A stretch of 38,094 nucleotides of DNA. Origin: Spongiibacteraceae bacterium. GTDB taxonomy: Bacteria > Pseudomonadota > Gammaproteobacteria > Pseudomonadales > Spongiibacteraceae. Below are positions 7,474-37,037 of this stretch, piece by piece; within the stretch, counting starts at the first letter, position 1, and each line of letters opens with the position of its first letter. The notes beneath the pieces are model-generated. The model was not told the DNA's origin. It did no database searches and worked only from the letters and a program-made list of their open reading frames with translations. The stretch covers positions 1-38,094 of the forward strand of contig PAKT01000095.1 in NCBI GenBank assembly GCA_002710725.1, in the 5' to 3' direction. Made by a program: the position numbers and the translations under genes.

Positions 7474-8076
7474 TTATTCTCCGTCCCGCAAAGCCTTTAA
7501 GAGGCTGATAAACTCACTAATTTCCTTGCTGGATAGTTTTCCATCCTTAAATTTTTGAACGCGGCCAGCACTGTCCAATACAATGACCGCTGCGCTTTTT
7601 CGTTTCAGTCTCCATGCCTTCTGTGCTTTGCTGGCATCGTCCAGCACAAACATTGCATGGGCATTTTTTGGCTGTTGCCTGGCTTCCTCGAAGGCGCTGC
7701 GGGCGAAGGCGCCCCCCATGGGAAAAACGTCGTCAATATTGATCATGCTGACCACTTTCATTTTTTCTTCGGGAAAGGCTTCAACGCCGCCTTCGGCTTC
7801 CAATGCGTCCAGCAGGGCTTGATTGACTTCGTCTATACCCATGCGTGCTGCCACGATGTAAAGCATATATGTGCGACCTTGCAGGCTGTCGCTAGACCAC
7901 GTGGCATAACTGATTTCACCTGATTCCAGTTTCAGTTCGCCAGCTCTACCGCTCAGTTCGACCAGGGGCAACGGCTGCCCGATTTCAATTGCCATGTTTT
8001 CTCCCGCTCTCGCGATGTTGCTCATCAACAGCAAACAAAAAATAAGTGACCGCATACGACTCTCCCTTTGACGCAA
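7474..8076 (-). CDS. YtfJ/thioredoxin-like periplasmic protein
   Basis: Signal peptide; GQPLPLVELSGRAGELKLESG...YATWSSDSLQGRTYMLYIVAARMG layout of YtfJ-like proteins. Confidence 0.6.
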   Translation of the reverse strand: MRQRESRMRSLIFCLLLMSNIARAGENMAIEIGQPLPLVELSGRAGELKLESGEISYATWSSDSLQGRTYMLYIVAARMGIDEVNQALLDALEAEGGVEAFPEEKMKVVSMINIDDVFPMGGAFARSAFEEARQQPKNAHAMFVLDDASKAQKAWRLKRKSAAVIVLDSAGRVQKFKDGKLSSKEISEFISLLKALRDGE

Positions 8077-9068: not shown

Positions 9069-9101
9069 AAAGGCGAATCAGTAAGCTACTGATTCGCCTT
9101 T
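9069..9101 (-). terminator. Strong intrinsic terminator, probably of the tRNA gene whose 3' end remains at 9109-9124
   Basis: Perfect 15-bp stem AAAGGCGAATCAGTA/TACTGATTCGCCTTT with 3-nt loop, followed on the minus strand by TTTATT. Confidence 0.8.
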
Positions 9102-9108
9102 AGTTTTT

Positions 9109-9124
9109 TGGTAGCGGGGGCAGG
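9109..9124 (-). other. tRNA 3'-end remnant (initiator tRNA-Met-like), probable left attachment core of the mobile element
   Basis: Minus strand reads CCTGCCCCCGCTACCA, as at the end of an fMet tRNA, and is followed by a terminator; the T-arm and the rest of the tRNA are absent. Confidence 0.6.
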
Positions 9125-9223
9125 CAACCGACACTGCTTGCTCTTTTCAATCTTCGATGTTAAGACACACATAACGTGTTGATTTTATAAGAGTTTATGT
9201 GTTTTGATGGGGGGTGGGTCAAT

Positions 9224-9340: not shown

Positions 9341-11449
9341 TCAATATACCTCTTGGCTGCGCTTTGCGTCTAGCGCTTTTCCAAGGTCAAAATCTAGCCA
9401 ATTTGTAAACCATTGCTGAGGCTTGCCTTCAGGCGTTTGAAAATTGATGATATCTATTGCATCAGATGAACTGGACACACCGAAAATAGATAACGCATCG
9501 ATTTTTATAGTGTCATTGATGTATGGACAAGAGATCAAGTCAAACAACAGCATGATAGACTCAGCATCCTTCTTCAGAGTTTTAGATCGCTTTTTTAGTC
9601 TGCTAATTGCTATATCAGTTATGACATTTCTAATTTCGTCATAACGAACCTTATCCTTCATGTAAAACAAAGATACTACAATTGAAAAGTAATTCAGCTC
9701 TCTGGGGGGTAATGATGAACTATGGCTAAGCCCCAAGTACCTAGATAAAACTTCTGCCTCAAGCCAATAATTTCGACCAAGCTCTGACAGGGTGACTAAC
9801 AAATAAAGAGTTTCAACTTGCGTGTGGCTACCAGCCCTGTTTTTTTCCAAAATAAAGCTGGTGTTATCAAATATTTGTTTATAAACCGTATGCACAAGCC
9901 CTGAATTAAACTTTGCCGATCGTAGAAAATGAGTGTAAATCCGCAAAACCCGGCATATTCTGATAGTAGTATTAACCCTTGGCGACACGGAATAAATAAA
10001 GAAAACAAAATCGAGAATTTCAATTATTGCTTTAGTTAGATTTTCTTCTGACCTCTCTCCTTGAGATACTTGTAAATAGTTTTTAAGCAACAGCTTAGAT
10101 TTCCTCTCAACTATAGCAAGTGTATAGTTAAGAAGGTCTTTGTAGGAAACATCGCACGACTTGATAATTGACTTAAAGTCAGTGATTAGCCTATTTGAAT
10201 TTACGTATATAGCGCCTTTTACAAGGTCTTCATCTTCCCCCTCAACGACTTCTTTTTCCAATTTAAATTGTATTTTTTCATTCAAAAGTCGAGCTATTTG
10301 ATCTTTAGCCATTGTTATTTCAGTAATAATTGGCTTTTCATAATCAACGGCTTTTGCAGAGTTCAAATGGAGTTTAAATTTTTTCAAGACATGCTGTAGC
10401 TGCTCTAAAATAGCGTCCTTGTCTTCTTGATTGTTATAAAAGACAAAGTAATCATCGACATACCTAAAAACCTCATAATCTCGTTTGTTGTATATTGGCT
10501 TTTTGGATGCCAAAAGCGCTCTTTCTACTTCTTGGTCGATTGCTTGAAGAATGATTTCAGCAAAAATCCTAGAAAATTCCGGTCCAATTATTATTCCGTT
10601 CGTCTCCCCAAGATTCATTGACTGCATTAAAGAATCAAACCCATCCGGGAAATTAGATTTTACTTTTCCCAATACCTCTTTTTGAGTTTCCTTTCCAAGT
10701 AACGCCCAGCCAACCGAATGCGTATATATGCTGTCAAAACATTTCGAAACATCTAACTTTATAAGGCGGTTATATTTTTTTTCAGAGCGGTGAAAGCGAT
10801 AAGATTCATAGAACTTGTATATATTGCTATAGTCTTTATATACGAAAAATGATTTTAAACTCTCGTATTCTTTTCCGCTCTCTTCAATGATTTCCTCCCC
10901 AACCGAAAGACGCTTGGCATGAAGCCCGTCATTAGGAAAATAAAACTTGGCTATTCTGACCGGAGCGCGAATAGAAAAGGGACTATTCTTCGTAAATGAA
11001 AGTATAGTCTCCTTAAATCTGTCATAGAAATCTACGACTTTCAATTGACTCCTGGGGTGTGGCACGCAGAGTTCCCTAAACTCATTCTCCTTATGGCTGA
11101 TCTTGTATGAGAAAGGTGACAAGAACCCCGCAACATCGGATAGTTTCCCCTTTCTATCCATTGATAACTTATACTCAGTTACGTCTTCGGATTTTTCGCC
11201 TATGAATTTTTTATGCGTAGTAATTCGTCCGGGTTCAAAATTTAATCCGAGCAATAAAATAATTATATTTTCTAGTACGCTAGACCCTTTTATCCATAAC
11301 ACCTTATTCCCATTCACTTCCAGACGATTACGAAGCACGAAATCGTAAAAATCTCTATTCGAGAATGTAACAGGAACTTCGTATGGCAAAACATCCGATA
11401 ACAAACACCTTTCTTTCTTATATGGGATACCTATTTTTCTTTTAGACAT
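9341..11449 (-). CDS. drt3b: Reverse transcriptase, DRT3 second-RT (UG8/Drt3b)-like
   Basis: 702 aa; RT motifs LIKLDVSKCFDSIYTHSVGWALLG, GIIIGPEFSRIFAEIILQ, FRYVDDYFVFYNN; long helical C-terminus; overlaps the upstream RT by 8 bp. Confidence 0.7.
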   Translation of the reverse strand: MSKRKIGIPYKKERCLLSDVLPYEVPVTFSNRDFYDFVLRNRLEVNGNKVLWIKGSSVLENIIILLLGLNFEPGRITTHKKFIGEKSEDVTEYKLSMDRKGKLSDVAGFLSPFSYKISHKENEFRELCVPHPRSQLKVVDFYDRFKETILSFTKNSPFSIRAPVRIAKFYFPNDGLHAKRLSVGEEIIEESGKEYESLKSFFVYKDYSNIYKFYESYRFHRSEKKYNRLIKLDVSKCFDSIYTHSVGWALLGKETQKEVLGKVKSNFPDGFDSLMQSMNLGETNGIIIGPEFSRIFAEIILQAIDQEVERALLASKKPIYNKRDYEVFRYVDDYFVFYNNQEDKDAILEQLQHVLKKFKLHLNSAKAVDYEKPIITEITMAKDQIARLLNEKIQFKLEKEVVEGEDEDLVKGAIYVNSNRLITDFKSIIKSCDVSYKDLLNYTLAIVERKSKLLLKNYLQVSQGERSEENLTKAIIEILDFVFFIYSVSPRVNTTIRICRVLRIYTHFLRSAKFNSGLVHTVYKQIFDNTSFILEKNRAGSHTQVETLYLLVTLSELGRNYWLEAEVLSRYLGLSHSSSLPPRELNYFSIVVSLFYMKDKVRYDEIRNVITDIAISRLKKRSKTLKKDAESIMLLFDLISCPYINDTIKIDALSIFGVSSSSDAIDIINFQTPEGKPQQWFTNWLDFDLGKALDAKRSQEVY

Positions 11450-12809
11450 TCTTCCAAGCCTCGACTATTGCAGAAAGGTCTTGAGCTGAAAACTTATGAT
11501 ATCTTTTTCTCTGAAATCCTTTTTCAAACGAATAATTAGACAATCTTGCTTGTAATCTTGAGACAGTCAAAGCAGATACATATGCCTGCAAATGAGCATC
11601 AAGATCCTGAAGATCATCTAACTCTGTCAGTAAGGGATTTGAAAAAAACACACCGGAAACCACATGCTTCTTATTATTAACAAGTCGAGTATTGCTGGTT
11701 AAAAACCGAATGCGTTTTTCCAGAAGACGTCTAGCTTGTTTTTCGTTATACCTCGATTTCTTTTGGTAGGCAGCGAACACCAAATCAATTCGCCTTTTGT
11801 ATCTATCTAACTTCGCATCAGTCATTGCCAGTTTGGCTGGCACGGGGTGCTTTTCCTTACCAGAGGAAAAAGTAATTTTATAACCCAAATATTCGATAGT
11901 ATTTTGAGGAATCGATGAGTCTGGTACTTTTTTTATATCTGTTTTGCTGCTATTCCTCTTTAATCCATGCTTTCTGAAGCACGTCAATATCGTTTTTGCC
12001 AACTCGAAACCATTTTGGTTAGGCTCTGGGCAGAAAACAATTAGCATATCGTCCACATATCTGGAATAGTAGATAACTGCTGGAGGTTTTATTATTGTCT
12101 CATCTATTTCGCGCATATAGAGCTCTGCAAGATATGCGCTGATACCAATCCCCCTCGGGATTCCCAATGAGCTTCCCGAAAGCCGACAATATTCAAATAT
12201 TATCTTTTGAACAATTCGCCTGGAATCAACAGAAAGAAGAGAGTCATCACGTAACTTTTTCAGCAACTTGTCCGTAGGAATGCTCTCATAAAAGGATGAG
12301 ATATCAGTGCGGATTACATATTTAGGAAAGCTATCGCCTAATAATTCACGGACTTGGCAAACTATTTGATGCCTATTTGCCTGTTTAACCTTATACAATC
12401 GCCGAAAATTGTGCTGGATTTGCTTAAGAGCAAAAAAGCTTTCGGCTGTATTATCGGTTGTGTAGACAGGCTTTCCTCCAATGGAGGCACCCTTCTGTAT
12501 ATTCAAAGAAAAGCTTTTTTCCCTAATTTTCTCGCTGACTTTAGTGAGTTCAGCGTCGATCAGAGTATCCCGTTCTTCTTTTAATTCCTTCAGTTCATTG
12601 TAAGCAGAATTAACCTCGTTCTCAGAATCATCTGACTGAACGGCAGCATGTATTTTCCGTAGCTCTCGCAATTTTTTTGAGCGAGATTGTATCTCTTTAC
12701 TTTTATCAGCAATATCGGGAAAAAACCTTCCTTCGAGATAATTGCCTTTTCTATTTTCTAAATCGAATATCTTTCTAAAATTGGAAGCTGAAAATGATTG
12801 ATCAAGCAC
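11442..12809 (-). CDS. drt3a: Reverse transcriptase, DRT3 first-RT (UG3/Drt3a)-like
   Basis: 455 aa; YVIRTDISSFYESIPTDKL, GSSLGIPRGIGISAYLAELYM, YSRYVDDMLIVF; GTG start overlapping the stop of the upstream GIY-YIG gene. Confidence 0.7.
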   Translation of the reverse strand: MLDQSFSASNFRKIFDLENRKGNYLEGRFFPDIADKSKEIQSRSKKLRELRKIHAAVQSDDSENEVNSAYNELKELKEERDTLIDAELTKVSEKIREKSFSLNIQKGASIGGKPVYTTDNTAESFFALKQIQHNFRRLYKVKQANRHQIVCQVRELLGDSFPKYVIRTDISSFYESIPTDKLLKKLRDDSLLSVDSRRIVQKIIFEYCRLSGSSLGIPRGIGISAYLAELYMREIDETIIKPPAVIYYSRYVDDMLIVFCPEPNQNGFELAKTILTCFRKHGLKRNSSKTDIKKVPDSSIPQNTIEYLGYKITFSSGKEKHPVPAKLAMTDAKLDRYKRRIDLVFAAYQKKSRYNEKQARRLLEKRIRFLTSNTRLVNNKKHVVSGVFFSNPLLTELDDLQDLDAHLQAYVSALTVSRLQARLSNYSFEKGFQRKRYHKFSAQDLSAIVEAWKNV

Positions 12810-14028
12810 TTTTCGCTCCCTCGCCAGGCTTATCCGAGAGAGATTGCAAGCTCGCGCTTTTCACATCGTACTTATAGTTTTCGATTTCTCCGCTCTTAAT
12901 CTTCTGGACTGCTTCATCAACGATGAACAACGGCACCAAAAACCACTCTCGCGGTACAACCGGTTTCCCAAACCGGTCTTTAATATCTATTTCCAGACGT
13001 GCCGCGTCGAAAAATCTATGGATTAACTTTTCAAGTTTGCTACGGTTTATGTTGTAAAGATCGTAGGTAGCCACCACCTCAACATCAGCAAGAAGATAAG
13101 TGGCATCGTTCTTTGAATTAGCTATTCTTCGGCTTACGTCACCGCCGGTTACGCCAATCTTATGAATTAAATCTCGATTAGCGGCCACGGTAGGATGATC
13201 GGACTTGCTGCGCAGTACATATATCGTCCCGCTTTGTTGGTCGTCTTCTGAGGCTTCACCAGCGAAAAGCGGACCGGCATTAGGGTCGGTAATTATGCGG
13301 CTAGCCTCGTCTTTATACAGAGCCCGTTGCATTGACCGCAATAACAGGTCACTTTCTGTGCCGTTGGAATAGATTACGCGCAAACGTGCGTCAGTCTCCC
13401 CATTTGGAGCGGTAAAATTCTCGCCAACTTCCGCGATATAGGCGGTCTGTCCACCAAGAATGAAGAACTCTCCTTTCCTGATATCTGTTTTGAGAAAGCC
13501 AGCATCTTTGCGAAATTTCTTAGTTTCACGCACCCCTGAATCAAGCTCTTGTTTTACAGCGTCGAACAATGGTTTGAATTTTTCGAAATCCTCGCAAACG
13601 GTGCGGTTCGCTATTTCTTCCGCAGCACGCTTTTCTGCGCTTGATCGGACGTGTTTGAGCTCTGTGAGTCCGCTATTGGCCTTATCTACGCCTAATTCGG
13701 CAAGCAGCTCTTCGTCGCCAATATCCTCCTGCGAGGAATACGTGGCAGCCGACGGTTCGCCAAGGAGGTTTTGATGATCAATTTCAGACACCAAATCCCG
13801 GCATTCTGTCTGTTCTCTAATCCTGTCGAGGCGAACGGCATATAGTCGCTCGAAGATATCCTTTTCTTCACCATGAGCGGGAGATCGCCCATTTTCTTCT
13901 ACGAAGCGCTGAATTTCCTCGAAGCCCGCAATTATTCTTTCCTCGCGCGGTGTACGCGCTGCTTTTTTTTGGGGCGTTGCTTCTACCCCTAGCGCATCCA
14001 GTAGCTCCTGATCAGATAGCTCAGCCAT
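12802..14028 (-). CDS. GIY-YIG / T5orf172-type domain protein
   Basis: GTIYVLRSKSDHPTVAANRDLIHKIGVTGGDVSRRIANSKNDATYLLADVEVVATYDLYNINRSKLEKLIHRFFDAARLEI. Start placed at MAELSDQELL, overlapping the upstream stop. Confidence 0.75.
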   Translation of the reverse strand: MAELSDQELLDALGVEATPQKKAARTPREERIIAGFEEIQRFVEENGRSPAHGEEKDIFERLYAVRLDRIREQTECRDLVSEIDHQNLLGEPSAATYSSQEDIGDEELLAELGVDKANSGLTELKHVRSSAEKRAAEEIANRTVCEDFEKFKPLFDAVKQELDSGVRETKKFRKDAGFLKTDIRKGEFFILGGQTAYIAEVGENFTAPNGETDARLRVIYSNGTESDLLLRSMQRALYKDEASRIITDPNAGPLFAGEASEDDQQSGTIYVLRSKSDHPTVAANRDLIHKIGVTGGDVSRRIANSKNDATYLLADVEVVATYDLYNINRSKLEKLIHRFFDAARLEIDIKDRFGKPVVPREWFLVPLFIVDEAVQKIKSGEIENYKYDVKSASLQSLSDKPGEGAKSA

Positions 14029-16078
14029 TCTTGGCCTCCGCTGTCTTCTTCTGTAGGAAAGCCACGCCTTCCGCCATCCTTCTCTCCCAAGGGTCAGCAG
14101 CGGTAATCTCTGGCAAGCGGCCACGCTCCTGTTTGAACTTTAAGGCTCGTTTAGCTAGCTCCCGTGCTTCTTCAATGGTTAAGTTTACCCGCCGTCCGGC
14201 AATGACTGCGGCCACCTGTTTTAGGCTTTCTTCACTCATGGCCTTTGCAAGAATGGCGTAGGCCTCACCAAACGGGTTAATGTGATCGATCAAATCGATA
14301 TCGAGATCGCGTACATCCATAGTAAATTTTCTGACGCCATCTATTAGTGCGGTGCCACCACTTCCGCCCTCAGTCTCAAGGCCGCCTTCTTTGATAACAC
14401 GGTCTGCTGCCTGGACGAGGTTTAGTGCCGCTATGGCGTGCTGCCTTACTGCTTCTTGATCTTCTTCATCTAAGTCTGGATATTTGTCCTTAATGATTTT
14501 TCCCATTCTCACCTGGGTCAATTCTTCCGGGATCATTTCTTCATCAAAGATACCGCGCTCTAAGGCTGTCTTGTCCTGGACAAATGAAGTGATCACCTCA
14601 TTCAGGTCTTCGCGGCATATGCGCTGGGCATCTGGGCTTTTAGGCTCAATCAGGCCGTTGATCTCAATTTCAAACTGGCCGGTTTCCTGACAGAACCCAA
14701 CATTCGTTTTGTCGGCGTTGTAACCGCCTTCTCCATAATCAAATCCATCGGTGGGGCCACTTGCCTTCGCTTTGGGGGTAAAGTTAAATCTCGGGGCTAA
14801 CACCTGTTCCATCAGCAAACTCGCGGCTATCGCCTTGAGCGTATCGTTTACAGCTTCGGTTACCGCTTCTTCTGAAGCATCAGGCTCGGCAATTAAGTTT
14901 GTGAAGCGGGCTCGCTCTTTACCAGGCGCATCGCGGGTTGCTCGTCCAATGATCTGGATAATTTCGGTAAGACTAGAGCGATAGCCAACTGTCAGTGCGT
15001 GTTCACACCATATCCAGTCGAAACCCTCTTTAGCCATGCCAAGTGCAATAATGATATCGACATAATCACGATTGTCTTTCTGCGTGGGGTCTTTCAGCGC
15101 AGTCGATACCTTATCGCGCTTGTTTGCGTCATCCTCAACCAAATCAGCAATTCGCAGAGTCCGGCCATCTTTTGTCTCTACAAGGTGAAAGCCCGTAGCG
15201 GGATCAGTACCCTTCCACGAACCAAGTTCCTCAATAATGTGCTCAACTTCTTTTATCTTATCTTTCGTGCTTTCTCGTGAATTGACGTTTGGAATATGGA
15301 CAATGGTCTTCTCGGCAGGATTTAGCACGCTTAGAATTTCATCGACATAAGAGCCGGAGTAGAAGTAGTAGCCAATATCAAGCGTTTTCAGGTGCTCATA
15401 GCCATTTAGTTGTTCGTAGTAGGTGTAGGTAACCGTAGCAAATCGAGATTCATCTTCGGCGGCCATTACAGGTACTGCATCGCCTCTAAAATACGAACCG
15501 GTCATTGCAACGATATGGACTTTATCGCGAGAGATAAATTCGCCTAAATGAGCGCCCAGCTTATTGTCGGGATTTGCGCTTACATGGTGAAACTCATCTA
15601 TAGCAATCAGGCGATCATCAAAAGCTTCTGCACCAAATCGATCAACAGCGAAGCGGAATGTTGAGTGGGTACAGACGAGCACCTTGTCGCTGCTATCAAG
15701 GAAAGCTTTGACCGAATTTACCTTTCCGCCTTCTTCACCTGGGGCATTGCACAGATTCCATTTTGGCTCTACTGACCAATCCCAATAGAAACCAAACTTA
15801 CTTAGTGGTTCGTTGCTAAAGCTCGACCCGATAGATTTTTCAGGAACCACAATGATCGCTTGTTTTAAGCCCTGATTATTCAGCTTATCGAGCGCAACAA
15901 ACATCAGCGCGCGGCTCTTCCCTGAAGCAGGCGGAGATTTAATAAGCAAATACTGCTCGCCCCGACGTTCATAGGCTCTTTCTTGCATGACACGCATACC
16001 AAGCTCATTTGACTTTTTGGAGCTGCCATTACGCGCATACGCTACCGAAACAGATGGGATATGTTTTTGCTCAGTCAT
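14021..16078 (-). CDS. DEAD/DEAH-box (SF2, restriction-type) helicase
   Basis: LLIKSPPASGKSRALMFVALDKL (Walker A-like), LIAIDEFHHVSANPD (DExH), IIGRATRDAPGKERARFTNLI (motif VI). Confidence 0.88.
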   Translation of the reverse strand: MTEQKHIPSVSVAYARNGSSKKSNELGMRVMQERAYERRGEQYLLIKSPPASGKSRALMFVALDKLNNQGLKQAIIVVPEKSIGSSFSNEPLSKFGFYWDWSVEPKWNLCNAPGEEGGKVNSVKAFLDSSDKVLVCTHSTFRFAVDRFGAEAFDDRLIAIDEFHHVSANPDNKLGAHLGEFISRDKVHIVAMTGSYFRGDAVPVMAAEDESRFATVTYTYYEQLNGYEHLKTLDIGYYFYSGSYVDEILSVLNPAEKTIVHIPNVNSRESTKDKIKEVEHIIEELGSWKGTDPATGFHLVETKDGRTLRIADLVEDDANKRDKVSTALKDPTQKDNRDYVDIIIALGMAKEGFDWIWCEHALTVGYRSSLTEIIQIIGRATRDAPGKERARFTNLIAEPDASEEAVTEAVNDTLKAIAASLLMEQVLAPRFNFTPKAKASGPTDGFDYGEGGYNADKTNVGFCQETGQFEIEINGLIEPKSPDAQRICREDLNEVITSFVQDKTALERGIFDEEMIPEELTQVRMGKIIKDKYPDLDEEDQEAVRQHAIAALNLVQAADRVIKEGGLETEGGSGGTALIDGVRKFTMDVRDLDIDLIDHINPFGEAYAILAKAMSEESLKQVAAVIAGRRVNLTIEEARELAKRALKFKQERGRLPEITAADPWERRMAEGVAFLQKKTAEAKNG

Positions 16079-16080
16079 GA

Positions 16081-18831
16081 TTAGTTCGCTTTCTTCTTAG
16101 TTGCAGATGCACCTTGCGAGGTCATCTTTGTATAGAGCTCAAACAATTTTTCAAGCCGCTCAGTGTCATTTTTGAATCGACGACCAATATAGATTCGCTC
16201 TAACACTTCATCGTTTCTATCGTGTGCCCGACGCAAATTGTCCGGCATATTTTCCGGGTCATATAGGTCGGCGATGGTGTCTGGAAAATGTGCTTCGCGG
16301 GCCAAAAGAATATCCTCAGCGCAACGAGTTAGGTCTTGTTTATTCTTTTCTGTAAGGCTTGGCAAGGGGAAGGTATTCCAGCCAAGAGTGTTCCCGTATG
16401 AAAATCGCATCTCCAATCGAGAGCAAACAGTCCCAATCCAAACTATATGCATGGTCGATGCGATTATAGAGAGGTTCCAAAGTTCGCAATCATAAATAGC
16501 GTAGCACTTATCTCCTATTACAGGCCCTGACTGGAAGTAATCTACTGGTAAATAAGATCGATTCTCGGATGAAACCCGAGGGATAATAACTGCTTTGTCA
16601 CCACCTTTAGCAGATAATTGGACGAAACGATATGGGGTTTTCGCGTGAGCTCTGGTTGAGGCAGCCTTGCTATCAGCTCGAAATAATTTGACTTTATCCA
16701 CTCGAGATTTAATTAATGGATTTGAAAGCGCTTCTTCACAATTGTGTTCTGTTATCCAAAGACAAGCTCTAGGCTTCGAGTTAATTAGCTCGTCTGACCC
16801 GAAGAATTGGCGAACAAACGTTGGATTAACATCTTGAGAAATTAACTCTCTCCCCTCAGAGGCGCTCATGATTAAGTTACCTCCGTCTTTAGCCATATTA
16901 CCGAGGTACATATCATCTACTTCAGAAATAGGCGAATTCGTCTTTTTAACAACAACCGAAGAATTAGGAATCAAGTAAGGTCCAATTTCCTTAACCTGAC
17001 GGACTTCCGATTCTGAGTACAACCTTGCGTCATAGTGAGAATTTGAGATTCCAACGATTACTACAGTAACTCCAGCCTTATCGGATGCCAGGTTAGACCA
17101 TTTAAATGAAGAGTGAGCGAACGAAATACTAAATCCCTCATTGAAAATGATCGGCCAGAGTAAGGCCACCTGTTCACCTTGACATATTGAATTAGTAGCC
17201 ACGAACGCGGCTTCTCCATCAGTGTTTCTAAAATATTCACAAGCCTTTACAAACCAATTCGAAACATAATCTAGAGACGCATAAGACCCTGGATAACGCC
17301 CAAAAACCTGCTCTGTATCACTTTTTTCTTCCGGCCCTTTTTTATTTCGCCCTTTGTATGGCGGATTCCCGCAGATATAGGTTTCACCACCTTCGTTCTC
17401 AAAGTCGATTTCGGCCTGATCAATAGGAGAATGGAACAAATCATCTGAATAATGCTTTACTCCGGTGCCAGTAGGCGGGCAAATAGAAAGCCAATCAACT
17501 CGTAGTGCATTGGCACAAGTAATCCAATTTTGTGTGTCAAGGGGCAAGAATTCCGCTAGGGCTTCCTTCTGACCGCGATACATTACATCGCATTGATACT
17601 CAGCAATGATGAGGGCGAGGCGGGCTATTTCAGCGGGGAAGTCTCGGACCTCAATACCTCTGAAATTTGTTAACGGTATATCAGTGCGCCGATCACTTTC
17701 ACCCCGTAGACGGTTAATCTCGGCCTCTATCGCTCGCATTTCTTTATAGGCGATTACAAGAAAATTTCCTGAGCCACACGCGGGATCAAAGACCCGGATT
17801 TTCGCAATACGCTTGCGCAGATTGAGAAGCTTTTGCGGGCTATCTACCACACTCTCAAGTTGCTCACGCAAGCCATCCAAAAATAGCGGGTTTAGGACTT
17901 TCAAGATATTAGGCACGCTGGTGTAGTGCATACCCAAGTGTCCCCGTTCTTCATCATCGGCAACTGCCTGGATCATCGATCCAAAGATATCGGGATTGAT
18001 TTTTTTCCAGTCCAGCTTGCCGATATGGAGCAAATAGGATCGAGCAATCTTGCTGAATTTCGGTGTTTCAGTGCTGCCTGAAAACAGCCCGCCATTCACG
18101 TAAGGAAAGCTATTTGCCCAGCGCGGGATATTGGCCTTTTCCCGCTCTGCCGTTTTCGTATTCATGGCGCGGAAGATTTCGCTTATCACATGATCAGTGT
18201 CTGATGCATCGCGCGCGCTCATTTGGTCGATAGTGGATGTGAATAGGTCATCCCCGTGAAAAATATCGGTATCTTCGGCAAAGAAGCAGAAGATCAGGCG
18301 CGCCATGAAATGGTTCATGTCCGGCCTGCGCTCTGCTGTGCTCCATTCTGGGTTGTCCTTCAAAAGCTCGATATACAGCCGATTAAGGCGGCCTGTTGCC
18401 TTAATATCAAAGGAACTTTCACGAATTTGCTTTACCGTAGTTATTCCGGCGAGCGCAAGGAAGAACCCGAAGTGGTCGGGAAAGTCTTTATATTCACAAG
18501 CGACAGTTTCACCTGAATTCAGGTCTTCTGCTTCAAGCTGAATGCCGTCAGTAGCCAGTACAAATTTTGCCTTTGCTTTTGTGGTGGCAGGGCTCGACTT
18601 CAAAGCCTCAAGGGTTTGAGCTACGGAACCTTCTTCACAGACTTTGATATGGATGTGGTTTCTTTGCAGTACACCGCCCTGGTCGGAGGAATTCGAATTA
18701 CCAGATTGCAGGCGCTTAATCGTAGTCTCTTTGTTACCAAACGCCCTCAAGAAGTCGAACGGAAATTCCTCTCCGTTGAAAGGTTGCTCTGCTAATTCAG
18801 TTATAGCCTGTTCTATTTCTACTGCGTTCAC
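16081..18831 (-). CDS. MmeI-like class I SAM-dependent DNA (adenine) methyltransferase
   Basis: HFMARLIFCFFAEDTDIF spacer, FDPACGSGNFLVIAYKEMRAIE (motif I), YICGNPPYKGRNKKG (motif IV). Confidence 0.85.
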   Translation of the reverse strand: MNAVEIEQAITELAEQPFNGEEFPFDFLRAFGNKETTIKRLQSGNSNSSDQGGVLQRNHIHIKVCEEGSVAQTLEALKSSPATTKAKAKFVLATDGIQLEAEDLNSGETVACEYKDFPDHFGFFLALAGITTVKQIRESSFDIKATGRLNRLYIELLKDNPEWSTAERRPDMNHFMARLIFCFFAEDTDIFHGDDLFTSTIDQMSARDASDTDHVISEIFRAMNTKTAEREKANIPRWANSFPYVNGGLFSGSTETPKFSKIARSYLLHIGKLDWKKINPDIFGSMIQAVADDEERGHLGMHYTSVPNILKVLNPLFLDGLREQLESVVDSPQKLLNLRKRIAKIRVFDPACGSGNFLVIAYKEMRAIEAEINRLRGESDRRTDIPLTNFRGIEVRDFPAEIARLALIIAEYQCDVMYRGQKEALAEFLPLDTQNWITCANALRVDWLSICPPTGTGVKHYSDDLFHSPIDQAEIDFENEGGETYICGNPPYKGRNKKGPEEKSDTEQVFGRYPGSYASLDYVSNWFVKACEYFRNTDGEAAFVATNSICQGEQVALLWPIIFNEGFSISFAHSSFKWSNLASDKAGVTVVIVGISNSHYDARLYSESEVRQVKEIGPYLIPNSSVVVKKTNSPISEVDDMYLGNMAKDGGNLIMSASEGRELISQDVNPTFVRQFFGSDELINSKPRACLWITEHNCEEALSNPLIKSRVDKVKLFRADSKAASTRAHAKTPYRFVQLSAKGGDKAVIIPRVSSENRSYLPVDYFQSGPVIGDKCYAIYDCELWNLSIIASTMHIVWIGTVCSRLEMRFSYGNTLGWNTFPLPSLTEKNKQDLTRCAEDILLAREAHFPDTIADLYDPENMPDNLRRAHDRNDEVLERIYIGRRFKNDTERLEKLFELYTKMTSQGASATKKKAN

Positions 18832-18845
18832 TTAGACTTTAACCC

Positions 18846-19874
18846 TTATTCATCATCCATCATTACCCAAATTTGCTGTAGGGGTATCTCAGCGCGAAGC
18901 TCTTTAGGTAGAGTTTCGTAGTCACCCTGTATGGCGGCAACCAAGTCATCAGAATTCCATAAACGGATATTAAAAAAGTCACGTCGCGCCTCTTCAATTA
19001 CGGTACTTTTGAATCCGCCCCACGAAACAAATAGGCCATGTTTCGCACCAAATTTTTGCATTACGCCCTTTAATTCGTCGTAGTCTTTCGAGCCAGTAGC
19101 ATCATCGCTTGACTTAACTTGTACACAAAGTCTAGGTTCGTCGAATCCCATTGGCCCTCTACCAGCGAGAATGTCAGCGCCGCCATCGGCTCCTTTCCGC
19201 TTATTAACTTGAACCTCATAGCCTTGGGCTTTGAGAACTTCAGCCACAAGCTCCTCCATTCTGTGGCCTTTGAATTTTCTGCCGATATGATCGCTAATCT
19301 GCTGCTTTGCAATTTCTGCAATATCCAGAGATTCACTTTCCGACGGGGTAGTGTCAATTTCCGCTGATTTTTCGGTAGAGACTGGGATTTTAGAAGAGCG
19401 GCCCGCAAGAATAGCTTTTACTCTTTTTTCAGCATTATTTTTCTCGACTCGAAAGACTGTTAGTGCTGAACCAAATGAATAAAGTAAATCTTGATCAAAT
19501 TTACTACGAGGAATAGGCTCGCCTATCCACTTAATTTTACGGCTATGCCGAGCTCCGTCTGGATTGTCGGGAAGATATTCGTACGGCCCTGCTACGTGCC
19601 CTAACGCTATTGCAGGACGGCTCTTCAAGGGAAGCGCAAAGAGGTCGCCGACCTGTAAAGAATTTGCAAAATTGAATAGCTGCCCCGCGTGATTAAAAGC
19701 GGTTTTGGTTTTTATCTCTGGGTCTGCTTGCTCGATACGTTCTTGAATTTCCTCTTTACTACTGAATTGGGTCAAGTCTTCTATTTCACCCCAGCCAATA
19801 AAGCAGCGGCCTTCATCTAGTGCCTGGTTTTCTCGCTCTCCATACCGTCCCGCTCTTGCTACCCAAATAGTCAT
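18846..19874 (-). CDS. Mrr-type restriction endonuclease with N-terminal EVE/PUA-like region
   Basis: C-terminal GRKFKGHRMEELVAEVLKAQGYEVQVNKRKGADGGADILAGR...LCVQVKSS (Mrr_cat D-QxK); N-terminal CFIGWGEIEDLTQF. Confidence 0.85.
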   Translation of the reverse strand: MTIWVARAGRYGERENQALDEGRCFIGWGEIEDLTQFSSKEEIQERIEQADPEIKTKTAFNHAGQLFNFANSLQVGDLFALPLKSRPAIALGHVAGPYEYLPDNPDGARHSRKIKWIGEPIPRSKFDQDLLYSFGSALTVFRVEKNNAEKRVKAILAGRSSKIPVSTEKSAEIDTTPSESESLDIAEIAKQQISDHIGRKFKGHRMEELVAEVLKAQGYEVQVNKRKGADGGADILAGRGPMGFDEPRLCVQVKSSDDATGSKDYDELKGVMQKFGAKHGLFVSWGGFKSTVIEEARRDFFNIRLWNSDDLVAAIQGDYETLPKELRAEIPLQQIWVMMDDE

Positions 19875-22193: not shown

Positions 22194-23873
22194 CTATCTA
22201 CCCCGATCTCTGCCTCGGCGTGGCCGTCTTGACCGGCGAGGTCGAGAGTTTCGGTTATTGTCATGGCTTGGGCCATTATCATCATCGCCGCCAGTATCAC
22301 CATCGTCCTGATCAGCACCGGAGGCTTTGTCGAATTCAGCGGTCAGGTTTGGAATATCCTTTTTGCCTTCGCCGCTTTCCTGTCGGCCCTTCTCGGCTGA
22401 TCCGGCGGCCTTATCAAAGTCAGCCGCAAGGTTAGGTATATCATTCGCGCCCCCCTGGGCTCCCTCGCGGGAACCTCGCACCTGCCCAGACGCATCCCGG
22501 AAATGCTCACGGAGATTTACGGCTTCACTACGTTCAAACTGCTTCTGGATATCGCGGCTTTGCTCGCGCTTGAAGTTTGCATCAAGGGCAGCGAGCTCCC
22601 TCGCGTCGATCTTGTTCAGATTTTGCAGGCGACGATCCAGGTCGTGCTCCATCGCTTGATGGACGCGGTCCTGCAATTTCGTTTCTTGCCGCTGGGCATT
22701 CGCCAGCGCTTCGAATTCGTTCGCCTGCTCGGCATGGCGCCTTTTGTCCTGATATTCGTGAAGCTTTTTGCGGGCAAATTCGACACCGGTCACGCGGCCC
22801 AGAAATAAGGCGAGCCCCTGCGGATTGAACCGCGCCCGCTTATCAGTGATTGCCTGCTCTTCGCTGGCTATTTTTTGCTCAAGCCATTTGCCTTCGGCAT
22901 CCTGCTTCTGGATGAGCGCTGCCTTTTCCTTTGTTATTCGCTCGGCCAGCTTCGGACGCTCGGCCTCCAACGGTTTGCGCCGTTCAAGCTGATCCTTTTT
23001 GAGGGTTTCGTATTTCTTGGCCCATTGCTCAAGATCATTGTGCTGTTTGAACTGCTCCCGCTGCTTGGCGGCTATCTGCCGCGCCTCGTCAACGGTCGGC
23101 AAAAGCTCGGTCGGATAATCGTTCTTCAGGAAGGCAGCAACATCTTTTGCCCGGACCGACTTGTCATCGATCATGCGGGGAAGCGCACTTGTGTGCCCAT
23201 GAAGATCAACCACCACATAGGGCCGGTCGCCTTGCGCCAGGATATAGCCCATATCGGCAAGGGCATTCACGAAGCCTTTGGCGCTGTCAGCCCTGTGCCA
23301 GGCTTTAGTGATCTCGGCCATCCGTTCTTCTTTGGTGCGGCCCGTCTGGTTTTGCTGGTGCTGGTCGTAAAGCGAGTTCTGTTTGTTCTTTTCCTTTTGA
23401 TCAGGCTCGTAACCATCCGGCAGGATTAGGTCGTGATCGCGGGCAAACTCCCGCGTCACCTTCATGAGCTTTTCACGATCAAAACTGAGCTGGACGGCTT
23501 TGCCTTGCTCGGCATCAATCCGCGACCAGACGACGTGGGCGTGCTCGCGTCCTTCCTTTATATGGAAGACGACAGCACGGGGCTGATCTTCCAGCCCAAG
23601 CTTTTGTTCAACCCGGTCTATATAGTCCATATATTGATCACGGCTCATCTGGCCGTTGACCTTGGTCCAGGGATTGATTGACAGGCTATATAGGTATTTC
23701 TGGCATTTAGTGAGACAGTGGGCCTGTAACTCCCACTCGGCAAAAGCGCCGTGAAGATCGTCGGCAACGGCTCCACGGATATGGGCAATTTCCACCTGCT
23801 CATTATCCGCCTCATTTTGCAGGTGGGTGGCCAGATCACCGCCACCACCGCGCTGGGAGGCAAAGGGAATCAT
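22194..23873 (-). CDS. MOBP/VirD2-type relaxase
   Basis: GREHAHVVWSRIDAEQGKAVQLSFDREKLMKVTREFARDHDL (HxH region) and long coiled, basic C-terminus. Confidence 0.88.
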   Translation of the reverse strand: MIPFASQRGGGGDLATHLQNEADNEQVEIAHIRGAVADDLHGAFAEWELQAHCLTKCQKYLYSLSINPWTKVNGQMSRDQYMDYIDRVEQKLGLEDQPRAVVFHIKEGREHAHVVWSRIDAEQGKAVQLSFDREKLMKVTREFARDHDLILPDGYEPDQKEKNKQNSLYDQHQQNQTGRTKEERMAEITKAWHRADSAKGFVNALADMGYILAQGDRPYVVVDLHGHTSALPRMIDDKSVRAKDVAAFLKNDYPTELLPTVDEARQIAAKQREQFKQHNDLEQWAKKYETLKKDQLERRKPLEAERPKLAERITKEKAALIQKQDAEGKWLEQKIASEEQAITDKRARFNPQGLALFLGRVTGVEFARKKLHEYQDKRRHAEQANEFEALANAQRQETKLQDRVHQAMEHDLDRRLQNLNKIDARELAALDANFKREQSRDIQKQFERSEAVNLREHFRDASGQVRGSREGAQGGANDIPNLAADFDKAAGSAEKGRQESGEGKKDIPNLTAEFDKASGADQDDGDTGGDDDNGPSHDNNRNSRPRRSRRPRRGRDRGR

Positions 23874-24220
23874 GACTGCCTGCCCATTGCTTTGAAGCAG
23901 CCATTACGGATCGTGACCAATTCTGTGAGAATTTGCTCAAGCTGCAAAGCAACATTTGCGTCATTTCCAGCCACCAAGGCTATCTCGCGCAAATCGTCAT
24001 GGAGGCGGGCTGTCTGTGCCAAAAGATGACCGATAACCTGCTTTTCGATGACAGGCTTTCTGGCTGCGCGTGCAGGTTCCTTGCCGAAAATTGCCTGTGT
24101 GATAAAGGCATTTTTCGAGAGCCCTGACCGCTCGACCCGCAACCAAAATTCGGCTTCCAGCTCTACGGGCGGGCGGTAGGATATCGGTCCTCTGCGCTTT
24201 TGGTCATTTTGCTTTTCCAT
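23870..24220 (-). CDS. mobC: MobC-type relaxosome accessory protein
   Basis: RGPISYRPPVELEAEFWLRVERSGLSKNAFITQAIFG; start at MEKQNDQ preceded by GGGAGG; overlaps the relaxase start. Confidence 0.75.
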   Translation of the reverse strand: MEKQNDQKRRGPISYRPPVELEAEFWLRVERSGLSKNAFITQAIFGKEPARAARKPVIEKQVIGHLLAQTARLHDDLREIALVAGNDANVALQLEQILTELVTIRNGCFKAMGRQS

Positions 24221-24310
24221 GCCTCCCAGCTTACTGAGGCTTTTCTGAGCCGAGCCTCGCGGCGTCATCGTGGCATCCAAACCTGCGGCAGGGTTGGTCC
24301 AGGGTTTTCA

Positions 24311-24607
24311 GGGGAGGCGAATTCCCCTGAATGCAGGTCAAGGCGGCACACGCCTTGTGGAGGGTTCCAAGGGGCGCACACTGCCCTTTGGTCGATGGGG
24401 CCGCCGGGGAGAGCGAAGTCTCCCCTGCTCGTGATGAAACGGCGAAACGTTTACCTCAGCCAGAGAGGTTCGATACCGATCTGGCTGACACAATCCCTTG
24501 GCGCGTCGATTCCCAAAGGATCGACAAGCTTAGGGATTCCGAGGGGGTGTCAACGGGGGATGGGAAGTCCCCCTCCAAGGTGGGCGTGGTATTACCACGC
24601 ACACCTT
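24311..24607. repeat. Array of nine consecutive hairpins
   Basis: Stems at 24311-24327, 24339-24357, 24367-24391, 24406-24425, 24437-24452, 24457-24487, 24492-24538, 24555-24573 and 24577-24607, read directly as inverted repeats. Confidence 0.8.
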
Positions 24608-24817
24608 GTGTTCCATCTTAATGCCTTCCTCCTGCTCTCCTTCGAGTCTACGGAAGAGGTCGTTACCATAATCTTAACAAAGCGCCAAAAACCGCCGTTT
24701 TCCTATGGTTTTCGGGTTTATTCGGGTCGATACGGATCGTTTCAGGTCGCCGCTTCCTTTGGGGAACCGGCGGGCCAGAACGGGCTGGTTCTGACTCTAT
24801 CAGGATGTGAACAAACG

Positions 24818-24848
24818 AAAAGCGGGAACGCTGTCGCGCCCCCGCTTT
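24818..24848. terminator. Hairpin, possible terminator
   Basis: AAAGCGGG...CCCGCTTT, 8-bp stem. Confidence 0.5.
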
Positions 24849-24874
24849 AATTGTGGGTAAGAATTTGGTGGTGT

Positions 24875-25477: not shown

Positions 25478-25627
25478 GTGAAAAAGAACGCATCAAACAT
25501 AAAATGTGAATGAAGAGCATTGCTAAAGTACCTTCCAAAATCACGAGCCACGATGATGCCGCGAGGCTCGCCATTTTCATGGCGCGTGATAATCCCTGCT
25601 ATCGGAATTGGCAGGACAATATTTGAA

Positions 25628-27163
25628 ATGAGCAGCAAAGACAGTGATGTACTTCTTGGCGACATTCCGCGTGGTGTATCAACCCGCTCGCTGAAGCAGC
25701 AAAGTGCCCCGCAGGCTCGCTGGCAAACCAGTGCCTCTATACAGCAAAGCGCGGCGCTGGCCTATGATCCCGAAGCCCCTTACGGAAAAATCCTCGTGGG
25801 TGCCATTGGCAATAAACTCGTGGGCATTGAAGACAACCGTCATATATTGACCGTCGCCGGTAGCCGCGCCGGTAAATCTGTCGCCGTTATTGGCAATATG
25901 TGCTTTTACCCCGGCAGCATTTTAGCAACCGATCCGAAAGGCGAGCTTGCGAGCCTGACTGCGGCCCGGCGGGCGGCCCTCGGCCAAAAAGTCTATGTGC
26001 TTGATCCCTTCGAGCAAACAACCGGCTTCGCGGCGGAGCATCGGGCGATATTTAATCCGATGGCTGCGCTAAGCCTTAACAGCCCCACCATTATTGAAGA
26101 TGCGGCCTTAATTGGGGACGCGATGGTGATTGCCGCAGGCAAAGACCCCCACTGGGATGAAAGCGCCCGCAATTTTATAGAGGGCATCATTTTGCATGTG
26201 GCTACGGCGGCGCAGTATGAAGGTGAACGAAATTTGATCACCGTTCGTAGCCTGCTCCGGCGTGCAATGGATTGGCAGGGCGACGATGACAATGGCGATT
26301 TCACGCTAAAAGCCGAGATGCTGGCAAACGCTGACTGGCTTGGGCAAGGATGCGGCTATACCGATGTTGCAGACGCTATTGAGGGCGCAGCGTTCGATTT
26401 CTTTGATAAGGGAGAGAATGAGCGCGCGAGCGTCCTTTCCACCGTTCGCCGCCATACCAAGATACTGGAATATACGGCAATGCGCCGGGTACTTTCCGGC
26501 CACGATTTTGATCTCGCCGATCTGAAGCGAGAGGATGGCGGCGTTACTATTTACCTTTGCCTGCCAGCCAGTCGCATGGGGCTGTGCAATCGCTGGCTTC
26601 GTATCTTCATCAATCAGCTCCTTGATGCGATGGAGCGTGAAAAAGCGGCACCCAAAAATCCGGTGCTGGTGGTGCTGGATGAATTTCCGGTGCTGGGTCA
26701 CATGAGCCAGCTTGAAAACGCCGCCGGTCAGATCGCCTCTTTTGGGGTGAAGCTATGGTTAATCTTGCAGGACTGGGGACAAGGAACCACCCTATATAAG
26801 GAAAGATGGGAAAGCTTTGCAGCCAATGCCGGGATCATGCAATTTTTCGGGAACAATGACCTCGCCACTACGGAATATATATCCAAGCGGCTCGGCAAAA
26901 CTCAGATCAACGCAATTCGTGGCGGTGAGGTCGGGCAGGATCAGGCCCGCCAGGGAATGACCGGAAAATCGGAAACATTGGAGCTTCATGATCTCATGAC
27001 CCCGGAAGAGGTCACTCGATTCTTTGCGCGCTCGGATGGCAAGAAACGTCAGCTCGTGATCTGGGCGGGCTACCATCCAATGATTTTGCAGCGGGTGGAG
27101 TATTTCGACCAGAACGGGCCGTTTGCGGAACTATTTTCTGGTCTGGCCGAACATCCGAGATAA
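25628..27163 (+). CDS. VirD4/TraG-type type IV coupling protein
   Basis: GSRAGKSVAVIGNMCFYPGSILATDPKGELAS (Walker A), VLVVLDEFPVLGHMSQLENA (Walker B), LWLILQDWGQ. ORF open from 25520; start chosen at MSSKDSD. Confidence 0.9.
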   Translation: MSSKDSDVLLGDIPRGVSTRSLKQQSAPQARWQTSASIQQSAALAYDPEAPYGKILVGAIGNKLVGIEDNRHILTVAGSRAGKSVAVIGNMCFYPGSILATDPKGELASLTAARRAALGQKVYVLDPFEQTTGFAAEHRAIFNPMAALSLNSPTIIEDAALIGDAMVIAAGKDPHWDESARNFIEGIILHVATAAQYEGERNLITVRSLLRRAMDWQGDDDNGDFTLKAEMLANADWLGQGCGYTDVADAIEGAAFDFFDKGENERASVLSTVRRHTKILEYTAMRRVLSGHDFDLADLKREDGGVTIYLCLPASRMGLCNRWLRIFINQLLDAMEREKAAPKNPVLVVLDEFPVLGHMSQLENAAGQIASFGVKLWLILQDWGQGTTLYKERWESFAANAGIMQFFGNNDLATTEYISKRLGKTQINAIRGGEVGQDQARQGMTGKSETLELHDLMTPEEVTRFFARSDGKKRQLVIWAGYHPMILQRVEYFDQNGPFAELFSGLAEHPR

Positions 27164-28248: not shown

Positions 28249-28800
28249 CTAAACCATTGACCGGCGTGTAACAGAAACGCCCTGAACCTTGCCCTGCTTA
28301 CGCTCTTTATTCCCAAGCAGTCGCGCGACGGCGGGATTGCCACCAAAAAGATAGGCCATTTCCGAAGCGAGCCGTCCGCGATTATCCCGCATGAGAAAAT
28401 CACATTGACGGGATTCTATCAGCAGCTTGAGAACATCTTTAGCGTCGCGGGCGGCGGCAATATGCAGGGCTGTATCATCAAGCCGCTCTCGTCTTATGTT
28501 TATGTCATACCCGATGCGAATATAGGCCAAGACCGTGATGGCATCGCCACGCTCAACCGCAGCGAAAAATCGTCGAGCCAGTAATATCTCCATGCCGTTG
28601 CCACGAGCGCTATCATTACCGGCCTGGTAACCACCAGTTGATACCATCCCCATTGGCTGAAGGTCGGCGAGATGTCGCAGCCGGTAAGCTTCCTTGGTAT
28701 CAGCGTCTAGCTGATCTTCTATTTCTGATACGCGCTTCGCGTTAGTGTCGGAAGACAGGAGTTTGTCGGTAAAGTTTCTTTTATCGTCAGAATCTGCCAT
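28249..28800 (-). CDS. Ankyrin-repeat protein
   Basis: FFAAVERGDAITVLAYIRIGYDINIRRERLDDTALHIAAARDAKDVLKLLIE. Confidence 0.8.
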   Translation of the reverse strand: MADSDDKRNFTDKLLSSDTNAKRVSEIEDQLDADTKEAYRLRHLADLQPMGMVSTGGYQAGNDSARGNGMEILLARRFFAAVERGDAITVLAYIRIGYDINIRRERLDDTALHIAAARDAKDVLKLLIESRQCDFLMRDNRGRLASEMAYLFGGNPAVARLLGNKERKQGKVQGVSVTRRSMV

Positions 28801-35449: not shown

Positions 35450-36709
35450 TTATCGCTCAATCGCAAATGGGTTTAAAAACTGTCTACCCCAAAAGAGCTT
35501 CTTATCGACTTCACTGAGCTCAGCCTCATCGCAGACTTCATCCCAGTGTTTTTCAATAATGGCCTGCTGATGATCAAATAGCGTCGATGCTTCCTCTTCA
35601 GATACCAGAAAATTATGAGCGGCTTCCCTGCAGCTTTTAAGCTGACTTAGCCTGTTATCACCGGATATCAGCATGGCTTGTGTCGCTTCATTGCCGGTTC
35701 GCCCTTGAGGGCAGATATCGTAGGCAGGAGTTAATGCCAGCCTATGACCATCCCAGAACGCGGCATGGTTGCGGGCATGATCATCGGTGTTACCACACAG
35801 GATATTAAAGACCAGACGGGCATACAGCTCTTGAAGCGTATCCTTCGGATCGCTGAACCTGCGGCGAATGATTTCTGCGAGCGTTTCATAGCTTGCATAG
35901 CGCGCCATCATGTCATCCAGCCCGAACAGCGTAAGTGCCGAGACCATTGCCTTGCGTGACCATCCGGCCCCCTTGGGCAGCCGGTCAAAGCGCTCAATAA
36001 GAAGCACTTCTTTGTTGGCCGCTTTCACCAGCTTTACCGGCGCGACATCAAGCCCCGCAAGCGCGGCAAGCCGCATCGCGATGAACTCTGCTTTTACAAC
36101 GCTGTAAAGATCAGCACTTGATGAAAACTTGGCAACGTATTTTTTACCCTGGTCCTGTATCAGTGCTTTGGGGCGTGCTCCCCCGATAGAACTGCCATGA
36201 AACAGCGCCTGATCGAGCTCGGGCGTGAGGGGCACGCCTTTCTCCACCCGCGCAGCGGACTCAATCAGCTCTTCCATGCTGACGTTATTCGCTGAGCGCG
36301 GTACGTATTCTGTAGGAGAGCGCTGAAAATCAAGTGCGCCAATACGGTCGGAGCCGGATTCCAGTAAATAGGTCAGTTCACCCAGTTCGGCAGTATCTGT
36401 TCCTGCGCCTTTTAGCCCCAGCTTTTTGTTGATGATTACACGCCGCCCCCATGCATCGGGTGCGGCATCACGGATGCAACCAGGCATGGATAAGCCATCA
36501 AGCAAGGGGAGTATTCCCTGCTTTAATGGAAGTTCCGGCTCATAAATGGAAATCGCGGGCTTACTATCACGAACCCGTTCAAGATAACTCTTACCGTAGT
36601 TGAACAGGACATTACCGTTATCGGCTTCAAGCCGTCCGGCAACGACGGGTTCGGTTTCTTCCGGCAACCATATCCAAACAAAAGCCTCGTTATCAGCACT
36701 AGAAGTCAT
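35450..36709 (-). CDS. hipA: HipA-family kinase toxin
   Basis: DAAPDAWGRRVI, GSSIGGARPKALI, FNILCGNTDDHARNHAAFWDG, LTPAYDICP. Confidence 0.92.
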   Translation of the reverse strand: MTSSADNEAFVWIWLPEETEPVVAGRLEADNGNVLFNYGKSYLERVRDSKPAISIYEPELPLKQGILPLLDGLSMPGCIRDAAPDAWGRRVIINKKLGLKGAGTDTAELGELTYLLESGSDRIGALDFQRSPTEYVPRSANNVSMEELIESAARVEKGVPLTPELDQALFHGSSIGGARPKALIQDQGKKYVAKFSSSADLYSVVKAEFIAMRLAALAGLDVAPVKLVKAANKEVLLIERFDRLPKGAGWSRKAMVSALTLFGLDDMMARYASYETLAEIIRRRFSDPKDTLQELYARLVFNILCGNTDDHARNHAAFWDGHRLALTPAYDICPQGRTGNEATQAMLISGDNRLSQLKSCREAAHNFLVSEEEASTLFDHQQAIIEKHWDEVCDEAELSEVDKKLFWGRQFLNPFAIER

Positions 36710-37037
36710 CGCGCACCACCTTTGTGGTTTTGCGGACGGATTTCGGTAGGAGAGCGAGCTTGTCCTTTACCTGGCCAAGCTGTTTTGAGAGTGCGAGCTC
36801 ATCGGCTTCAAAGAGTGTGACCCCGACAATCGTGGCCACCTCGAATACAACCCCGATTTCGCACTTCATATCTCCCTTTTCGATCCTTTGTAATAGCCCA
36901 CGGGAAATTCCGGCGCGATCAGCGACCTCCTGTACTGTGAACTTCCGTTCGGTCCGTGCTTCGCGGATCAATAAGCCAAGAAGAGAGACCGCTTCGCGGC
37001 TATAGCGAGAATATGTGCGCGTTACTGATTTAGGCAT
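36699..37037 (-). CDS. hipB: HipB-like XRE-family antitoxin
   Basis: LIREARTERKFTVQEVADRAGISRGLLQRIEKGDMKCEIG; overlaps hipA. Confidence 0.88.
   Translation of the reverse strand: MPKSVTRTYSRYSREAVSLLGLLIREARTERKFTVQEVADRAGISRGLLQRIEKGDMKCEIGVVFEVATIVGVTLFEADELALSKQLGQVKDKLALLPKSVRKTTKVVRDDF

Follow-up and report, generated by a model that had tools for sequence, protein, structure and literature searches.

The chain of hairpins that separates a mobC-like gene from a VirD4/TraG-type coupling protein gene in the window, a stretch of 38,094 nucleotides spanning contig PAKT01000095.1 of a Spongiibacteraceae bacterium, is probably the origin of transfer (oriT) of an integrative mobilizable element. 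In this proposal, which draws on sequence comparison, the nic site, the strand that is transferred and what the upstream hairpins do are inferred. What was observed in its favour is a family of related arrays, covariation within them, a sharp one-sided boundary, a fixed geometry at that boundary, and an association with one clade of relaxases. The family is widespread and apparently undescribed. The features of the array and its flanks are collected in Table 1.

Table 1. The hairpin array and neighbouring genes in the window (^ marks the predicted nick)
Feature	Position	Strand	Basis or remark
Upstream hairpin array, eight hairpins	24282..24550	+	+ single strand folds preferentially; local folding, covariation
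Upstream hairpins 1-4	24282-24303, 24304-24334, 24339-24357, 24367-24391	+	
Upstream hairpins 5-8	24406-24425, 24437-24452, 24456-24488, 24492-24538	+	
Penultimate hairpin, GGGGGA..TCCCCC	24551..24575	+	Homologue of the family's conserved GATGCAAC-GGG..CCC-TTGC hairpin
Terminal hairpin, inner stem GCGTGGTA/TACCACGC, outer arms CAAGGTG/CACCTTG	24576..24608	+	Proposed oriT relaxase recognition hairpin
Predicted nic, CACCTTG^TG	24608..24609	+	Inferred; transferred strand would be +, with its 5' end at 24609
Downstream motif, TCTTAA	24616..24621	+	+7 to +12 after CTTG^Y; conserved in the family, conservation stops there
mobC-like gene	23870..24220	-	Divergent from array; ATG at 24220, tool start TTG 24280
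Relaxase, PF03432, HUH	22194..23873	-	Profile match, tree, predicted fold
VirD4/TraG-type coupling protein	25520..27163	+	Follows the array in the same orientation, as it does in most relatives
Ankyrin-repeat protein	28249-28800	-	In a convergent pair that often accompanies the array
Putative HTH-like protein, 281 aa	28804-29649	-	Partner in the convergent pair

Local folding resolved about 330 bases, 24282-24608, into ten hairpins. The initial annotation had reported nine at 24311-24607; the array itself was borne out, with one hairpin more and a start about 30 bases further upstream. Every inverted repeat that had been named was found in the window sequence, including CAAGGCG/CGCCTTG (24339-24357), CAGCCAGA/TCTGGCTG (24457-24487), AATCCCT/AGGGATT (24492-24538), which does enclose GTCGAT/ATCGAC, and GCGTGGT/ACCACGC, nested in AAGGTG/CACCTT (24576-24608). 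The repeat given as 9 bp, CCAAGGGGC/GCCCTTTGG, is present as well (24367-24391), but its nine pairs include G-T pairs and are not all Watson-Crick. The loops were also as described, three of them GCGAA-like (GCGAA in 24304-24334, GCGAAG in 24406-24425, GCGAAA in 24437-24452) and two GCACA-like (GCACA in 24339-24357, CACAC in 24367-24391). One assignment by local folding, 24426-24444, is weak, and homology instead supports the stem AAACG-GCGAAA-CGTTT at 24437-24452. The minimum free energy of the + strand of 24311-24607, folded as RNA, is -152.1 kcal/mol versus -116.4 +/- 5.6 for dinucleotide shuffles (z = -6.42), and none of the 200 shuffles reached the + strand value; the - strand gave z = -5.0. 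Two open reading frames on the + strand overlap the array (24200-24850 and 24331-24621). As suspected, such frames look spurious: the 96-amino-acid frame 24331-24621, the only one of the array that was scanned, has no Pfam match, and it is pairing, not frame, that is conserved in relatives. An apparent second copy of the array in the same genome was dismissed as a chance match of 37 nt within a gene.

About 50 loci of the family were recovered, chiefly from Alphaproteobacteria and some from Gammaproteobacteria. DNA similarity alone connects the array with Spongiibacter marinus (96%) and with pSymB of Sinorhizobium meliloti (71%), where it again lies upstream of mobC and the relaxase gene; a serine recombinase follows the array in both of two further gammaproteobacterial loci found in this way, and DNA similarity gave no matches in phages or E. 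coli genomes. A covariance model built on the 3' part of the array (R1) matched 8 of 399 proteobacterial genomes, the window's own among them, one restricted to the final two hairpins (R2) matched 25 of 385 alphaproteobacterial genomes, and a pattern search matched seven contigs of a viral collection. The terminal module of two hairpins is present in every family locus, and the hairpins 5' of it range from none or a few to a dozen. Several loci, among them plasmid pTF4.1 and locus L061, have only two hairpins left and still retain the terminal nic-like one. Across the family the upstream hairpins keep their order and carry distinct conserved loops (GCGAYA, UCRAU and GCGAAG). The modules compared were 45 distinct ones, to which four from plasmids were later added, giving 49. 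CsrA sponges were ruled out, as the loops are not of the GGA type, as were REP elements, since stems differ among loci whereas loops and order persist, and attC sites of integrons, the cassette arrangement being absent. In the Bradyrhizobium plasmid pCC829_1 (locus L138), a palindromic terminal hairpin scores on both strands (7210-7264, +; 7230-7301, - of that locus), as is also the case, weakly, in the window.

In most loci on long-enough contigs, the array shares its element with a PF03432 relaxase and a VirD4-type coupling protein and usually sits between them. In type A loci, mobC and the relaxase gene are divergent from the array and lie within about 1 kb 5' of it, and virD4 follows the array in the same orientation. 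The relaxase gene of type B loci shares the strand of the array and is found 5-25 kb upstream; here too virD4 is downstream.

Compensatory changes, whose absence from homologues the initial annotation had named as a refuting result, were found. In the five type A arrays that could be aligned, pairing holds in 89.5% of cells and double-sided change is seen in 19 of 73 pairs, compared with 40-45% and 2-8 pairs in sliding controls. In the 45 terminal modules, 97.4% of cells are paired, a figure somewhat inflated because the alignment was fitted to its own model, and 17 of 23 pairs show double-sided change (158 cells), changes that are present in the sequences regardless; the controls gave 37-55% and 3-20 double-change cells. 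G-U is rare in the terminal module, at about 13 of 1001 cells, and almost all of its pairs are Watson-Crick. The + strand is the better folder at 42 of 49 loci and, when full arrays were folded without G-T pairs, the single mismatches within helices were G-T in 37 cases versus A-C in 4, an excess which argues that the + strand is selected as a folded single strand.

This strand preference, together with the many hairpins, their conserved order and their distinct conserved loops, is also what one would expect if the whole array were a structured noncoding RNA of the + strand, large and of a new kind associated with mobile elements, for example a relaxosome scaffold, a decoy or a regulator of mobC and relaxase, and the specific conserved loops and G-T pairs of many upstream hairpins, being RNA-like, count against the oriT reading. 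However, the predicted transferred strand is the + strand as well, so the bias cannot separate a + strand RNA from transferred DNA. The terminal module, moreover, is nearly free of G-U, the nic-like CTTG^Y forms its invariant core, DNA is conserved 7-12 nt past the helix, and the presence of the array tracks a relaxase clade. Both a sigma-70-like promoter and a + strand terminator are absent at the locus, and no Rfam 15 covariance model matched the array at its gathering threshold or at E values up to 1. We consider an RNA unlikely.

In 48 of 49 modules the terminal hairpin has CTTG as its last bases and C or T directly after them; in 45 of the 49 a purine comes next. Between the inner stem and CTTG^Y there are 7-8 nt in most of the parsed modules, according to the pattern A[CT]NNCTTG^YR. 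RP4 and VirD2-type MOBP systems have the nic consensus (C/T)ATCCTG(C/T) (PMC3772185), and the nic sequence of an IncM plasmid is ACATCTTGT (PMC7440800). A full match to YATCYTG^Y occurs in 28 of 49 modules, the variant of the window, CACCTTG^T, being one position off, a departure that speaks against the oriT reading. A CTTG^Y placed in this way beyond an inner hairpin has the geometry, and belongs to the type of sequence, of a nic for MOBP/MOBQ relaxases. The last arm varies (CATCTTG, CACCTTG, CAGCTTG, TGGCTTG and, in L061, CATCTCG), and the first arm co-varies with it. Since CTTG pairs with CAAG in the folded hairpin, a nic at this place would need opening, which counts against the oriT reading.

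On the 3' side, a second, weak motif (approximately YCTTAW) is conserved across the family at +7 to +12, with no conservation further 3', and arrays of different elements, compared in pairs, cease to be similar between 0 and about +12. Structure extends over the 200 nt 5' of the module (median z -2.75; z < -2 in 29 of 44) but not over the 200 nt 3' of it (median z -0.1; z < -2 in 4 of 45). So sharp an end to the similarity could also mark a recombination or transposition end, whether of a serine-recombinase cassette or of a rolling-circle transposon, and about 15 loci do have a CcrB-like serine recombinase on the downstream side of the array. Yet many loci are without one (the window, pTF4.1 and S. 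meliloti among them), the distance between recombinase and array varies from 0.2 to 6 kb, and a conserved target or terminal sequence is absent past +12; such an end is very improbable in our judgement. The recombinases at these roughly 15 proteobacterial loci are large and encoded on the array strand (L028 2060-3235, L022 8130-9923 and L030, for example); the one that was scanned is most like CcrB of SCCmec.

In a phylogenetic tree all relaxases linked to the array except that of G323 fall into one clade (support 98/97), within which type A is monophyletic (95/84), and 11 of 13 unlinked relaxases from the same genomes lie outside it. With membership of this clade set at more than 160 bits, a cut-off picked after the scores were seen, 25 of 385 alphaproteobacterial genomes carry a clade relaxase, 25 carry the array and 21 carry both (Fisher p = 7e-27), so that the array occurs in 21 of 25 genomes with a clade relaxase versus 4 of 360 without. 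Among these last four, G377 has a more distant, divergent relaxase less than 1 kb from the array, and two genomes are fragmented or incomplete. Several observations count against the oriT reading: four genomes carry a clade relaxase without a detectable module, the elements of G959 and G310 have arrays without such a relaxase, and in type B elements the relaxase gene lies 5-25 kb from the array and it, instead of the array, has mobC at its side. The idea that type B elements have their oriT at mobC, away from the array, was considered and rejected, no module being found near the relaxase there.

The array occupies the intergenic position of the relaxase operon in the window, in eight other genomic or plasmid loci, in L061, and in four of six plasmids found independently. 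The latter six were new plasmids, retrieved with the relaxase protein alone and then read. In the four, the module lies directly upstream of mobC or the relaxase gene and points away from it: Sphingopyxis pSREG01 and Frigidibacter pcai42B have full arrays, Bradyrhizobium pCC829_1 has the module in this place, and Acidithiobacillus ferrooxidans pTF4.1 (4.1 kb) has a minimal module of two hairpins, 45 nt from mobC, which lies in the short gap upstream of that gene in a record with no other matching module. In the Sphingobium and Peteryoungia plasmids the module was not found within 20 kb. According to MOB-suite, pTF4.1 and related plasmids are of type MOBP, and the position homologous to the mobC-like gene of the window is annotated as mobC in pTF4.1, pSREG01 and pcai42B.

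These plasmids bear on a further explanation, that oriT lies elsewhere and the array serves solely for single-strand initiation, as an sso or an Frpo-like single-strand promoter, of complementary-strand synthesis or of early expression. A strand-specific hairpin array within a conjugative element would fit this, and sso elements are defined by stem-loops and not by sequence (PMC4595007). However, where the array shrinks to two hairpins, as in pTF4.1 and L061, the terminal nic-like hairpin persists; the module of pTF4.1 sits in the gap upstream of mobC without a rival in the record; and the association is with a relaxase clade, not with a host RNA polymerase or primase. We regard this explanation as quite improbable. 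The initial annotation had left open a structured RNA, an oriT-adjacent structure and single-strand initiation or promoter elements. Because of the association with the relaxase clade, the nic-like geometry and the adjacency to mobC, the oriT option is now strongly favoured; single-strand initiation is plausible for the upstream hairpins, and the RNA option is weakened.

As an oriT, the terminal hairpin together with CTTG^T and the +7 to +12 motif would be the recognition site of the adjacent PF03432 relaxase, which would nick the + strand at about 24608^24609. A nic at CTTG^Y makes the + strand the transferred one and places all of the upstream hairpins at its trailing end. The transferred strand would thus lead into the virD4 side and end with the array, and the upstream hairpins, all 5' of the nic, would become single-stranded only at that trailing end, where they would most likely fold to serve end recognition, recircularisation and/or sso-like priming of the complementary strand. 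It is plausible that they constitute a complementary-strand (sso-like) origin. In rolling-circle plasmids, the sso is usually upstream of the dso and is exposed only once the strand is nearly complete (PMC4595007). Like the sso of such plasmids and of ICEBs1, the array consists of strand-specific stem-loops 5' of the predicted nick origin, with structure prevailing over sequence; unlike them it is far longer, and the likeness is one of arrangement, with no claim of sequence similarity.

The array resembles the oriT of MOBP systems (RP4, the VirD2-like tfs4 of H. pylori, IncI/IncM type) in its intergenic position upstream of the relaxase operon, in the inverted repeat just 5' of a predicted nic, which fits the (C/T)ATC(C/T)TG^(C/T) type in full in 28 of 49 modules, and in the company of a PF03432 relaxase with a MobC-like accessory protein. 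In contrast to them, its CTTG is near-invariant but the preceding bases co-vary with the other arm, CAAG is available as a pairing partner for its nic strand, as many as about ten extra covarying hairpins lie 5' of the nic, and its relaxase clade lacks the tyrosine of motif I. In MOBQ systems (R1162 MobA, pSK41-type NES), the nic lies about 8 nt after a hairpin and reads TAAGTGCG^C. The module shares this hairpin-then-nic layout, and the predicted fold of the relaxase is closest to MOBQ structures (2ns6 and 4ht4); the predicted nic, in contrast, is CTTG^Y, and TAAGTGCG is absent from the array on reading its sequence.

A sequence search of the PDB with the relaxase profile returned no matches, and a fold search was therefore used. 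The relaxase domain model (pLDDT 90.5) is closest to R1162 MobA (2ns6) and a Staphylococcus aureus relaxase (4ht4), at low TM-scores of 0.46 and 0.40, respectively. In the alignment of the array-linked clade (A7), motif I lacks the invariant tyrosine and a histidine, His17, is nearly invariant instead; the lack of the usual catalytic tyrosine counts against the oriT reading. A histidine nucleophile has been reported for MobM, of which His17 is reminiscent, and the clade is possibly of the His type.

Some mobile genomic islands carry oriT only (PMC5704250). The arrays of G959 and G310 likewise lie in islands without a relaxase, and these could be oriT-only islands, although they differ from the known ones in using CcrB-like serine recombinases. 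Neither a PF03432 relaxase nor a PF02534 coupling protein was found in the G959 genome, which is 99% complete. Its locus, L083, is a small island of the chromosome that includes a serine recombinase; two convergent modules there (7549-7618, +; 9089-9158, -) lie 1.5 kb apart and flank one gene. A broader and more tentative proposal, somewhat doubtful as a whole, is that of a new kind of modular cis element in which a long series of ordered covarying hairpins with distinct conserved loops acts as folded single-stranded transferred DNA, or as a dedicated RNA, at the trailing end of conjugative transfer, and that such hairpins serve possibly His-type relaxases, and have been co-opted by relaxase-less CcrB islands.

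If the oriT reading is true, an oriT with a predicted nic becomes available for a widespread alpha- and gammaproteobacterial relaxase clade for which we found no described oriT, and so does a mobilization route for many defence-carrying islands, some of them relaxase-less. Folded structures at the trailing ends of transferred strands, and their job, would become testable on one short sequence. R2 already detects the element in unannotated genomes.

The pairing of a putative HTH-like protein (240-310 aa) with a small ankyrin protein, convergent with the array, recurs in about ten loci (also L019 4091-5396 and L021 3351-4444); the larger, HTH-like member matches no known family. As cargo, the element of the window carries adjacent Drt3b and Drt3a reverse transcriptases (9341-12809, -), which PADLOC assigns to the DRT3 antiphage system. 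A helicase-like gene (14021-16078) stands beside a type IIG restriction-methylation enzyme (16081-18831, -) and the candidate defence protein PDC-S02 (18846-19874, -). A HipA/HipB-like pair, judged from sequence, adjoins the tyrosine integrase end of the element (35450-37037, -).
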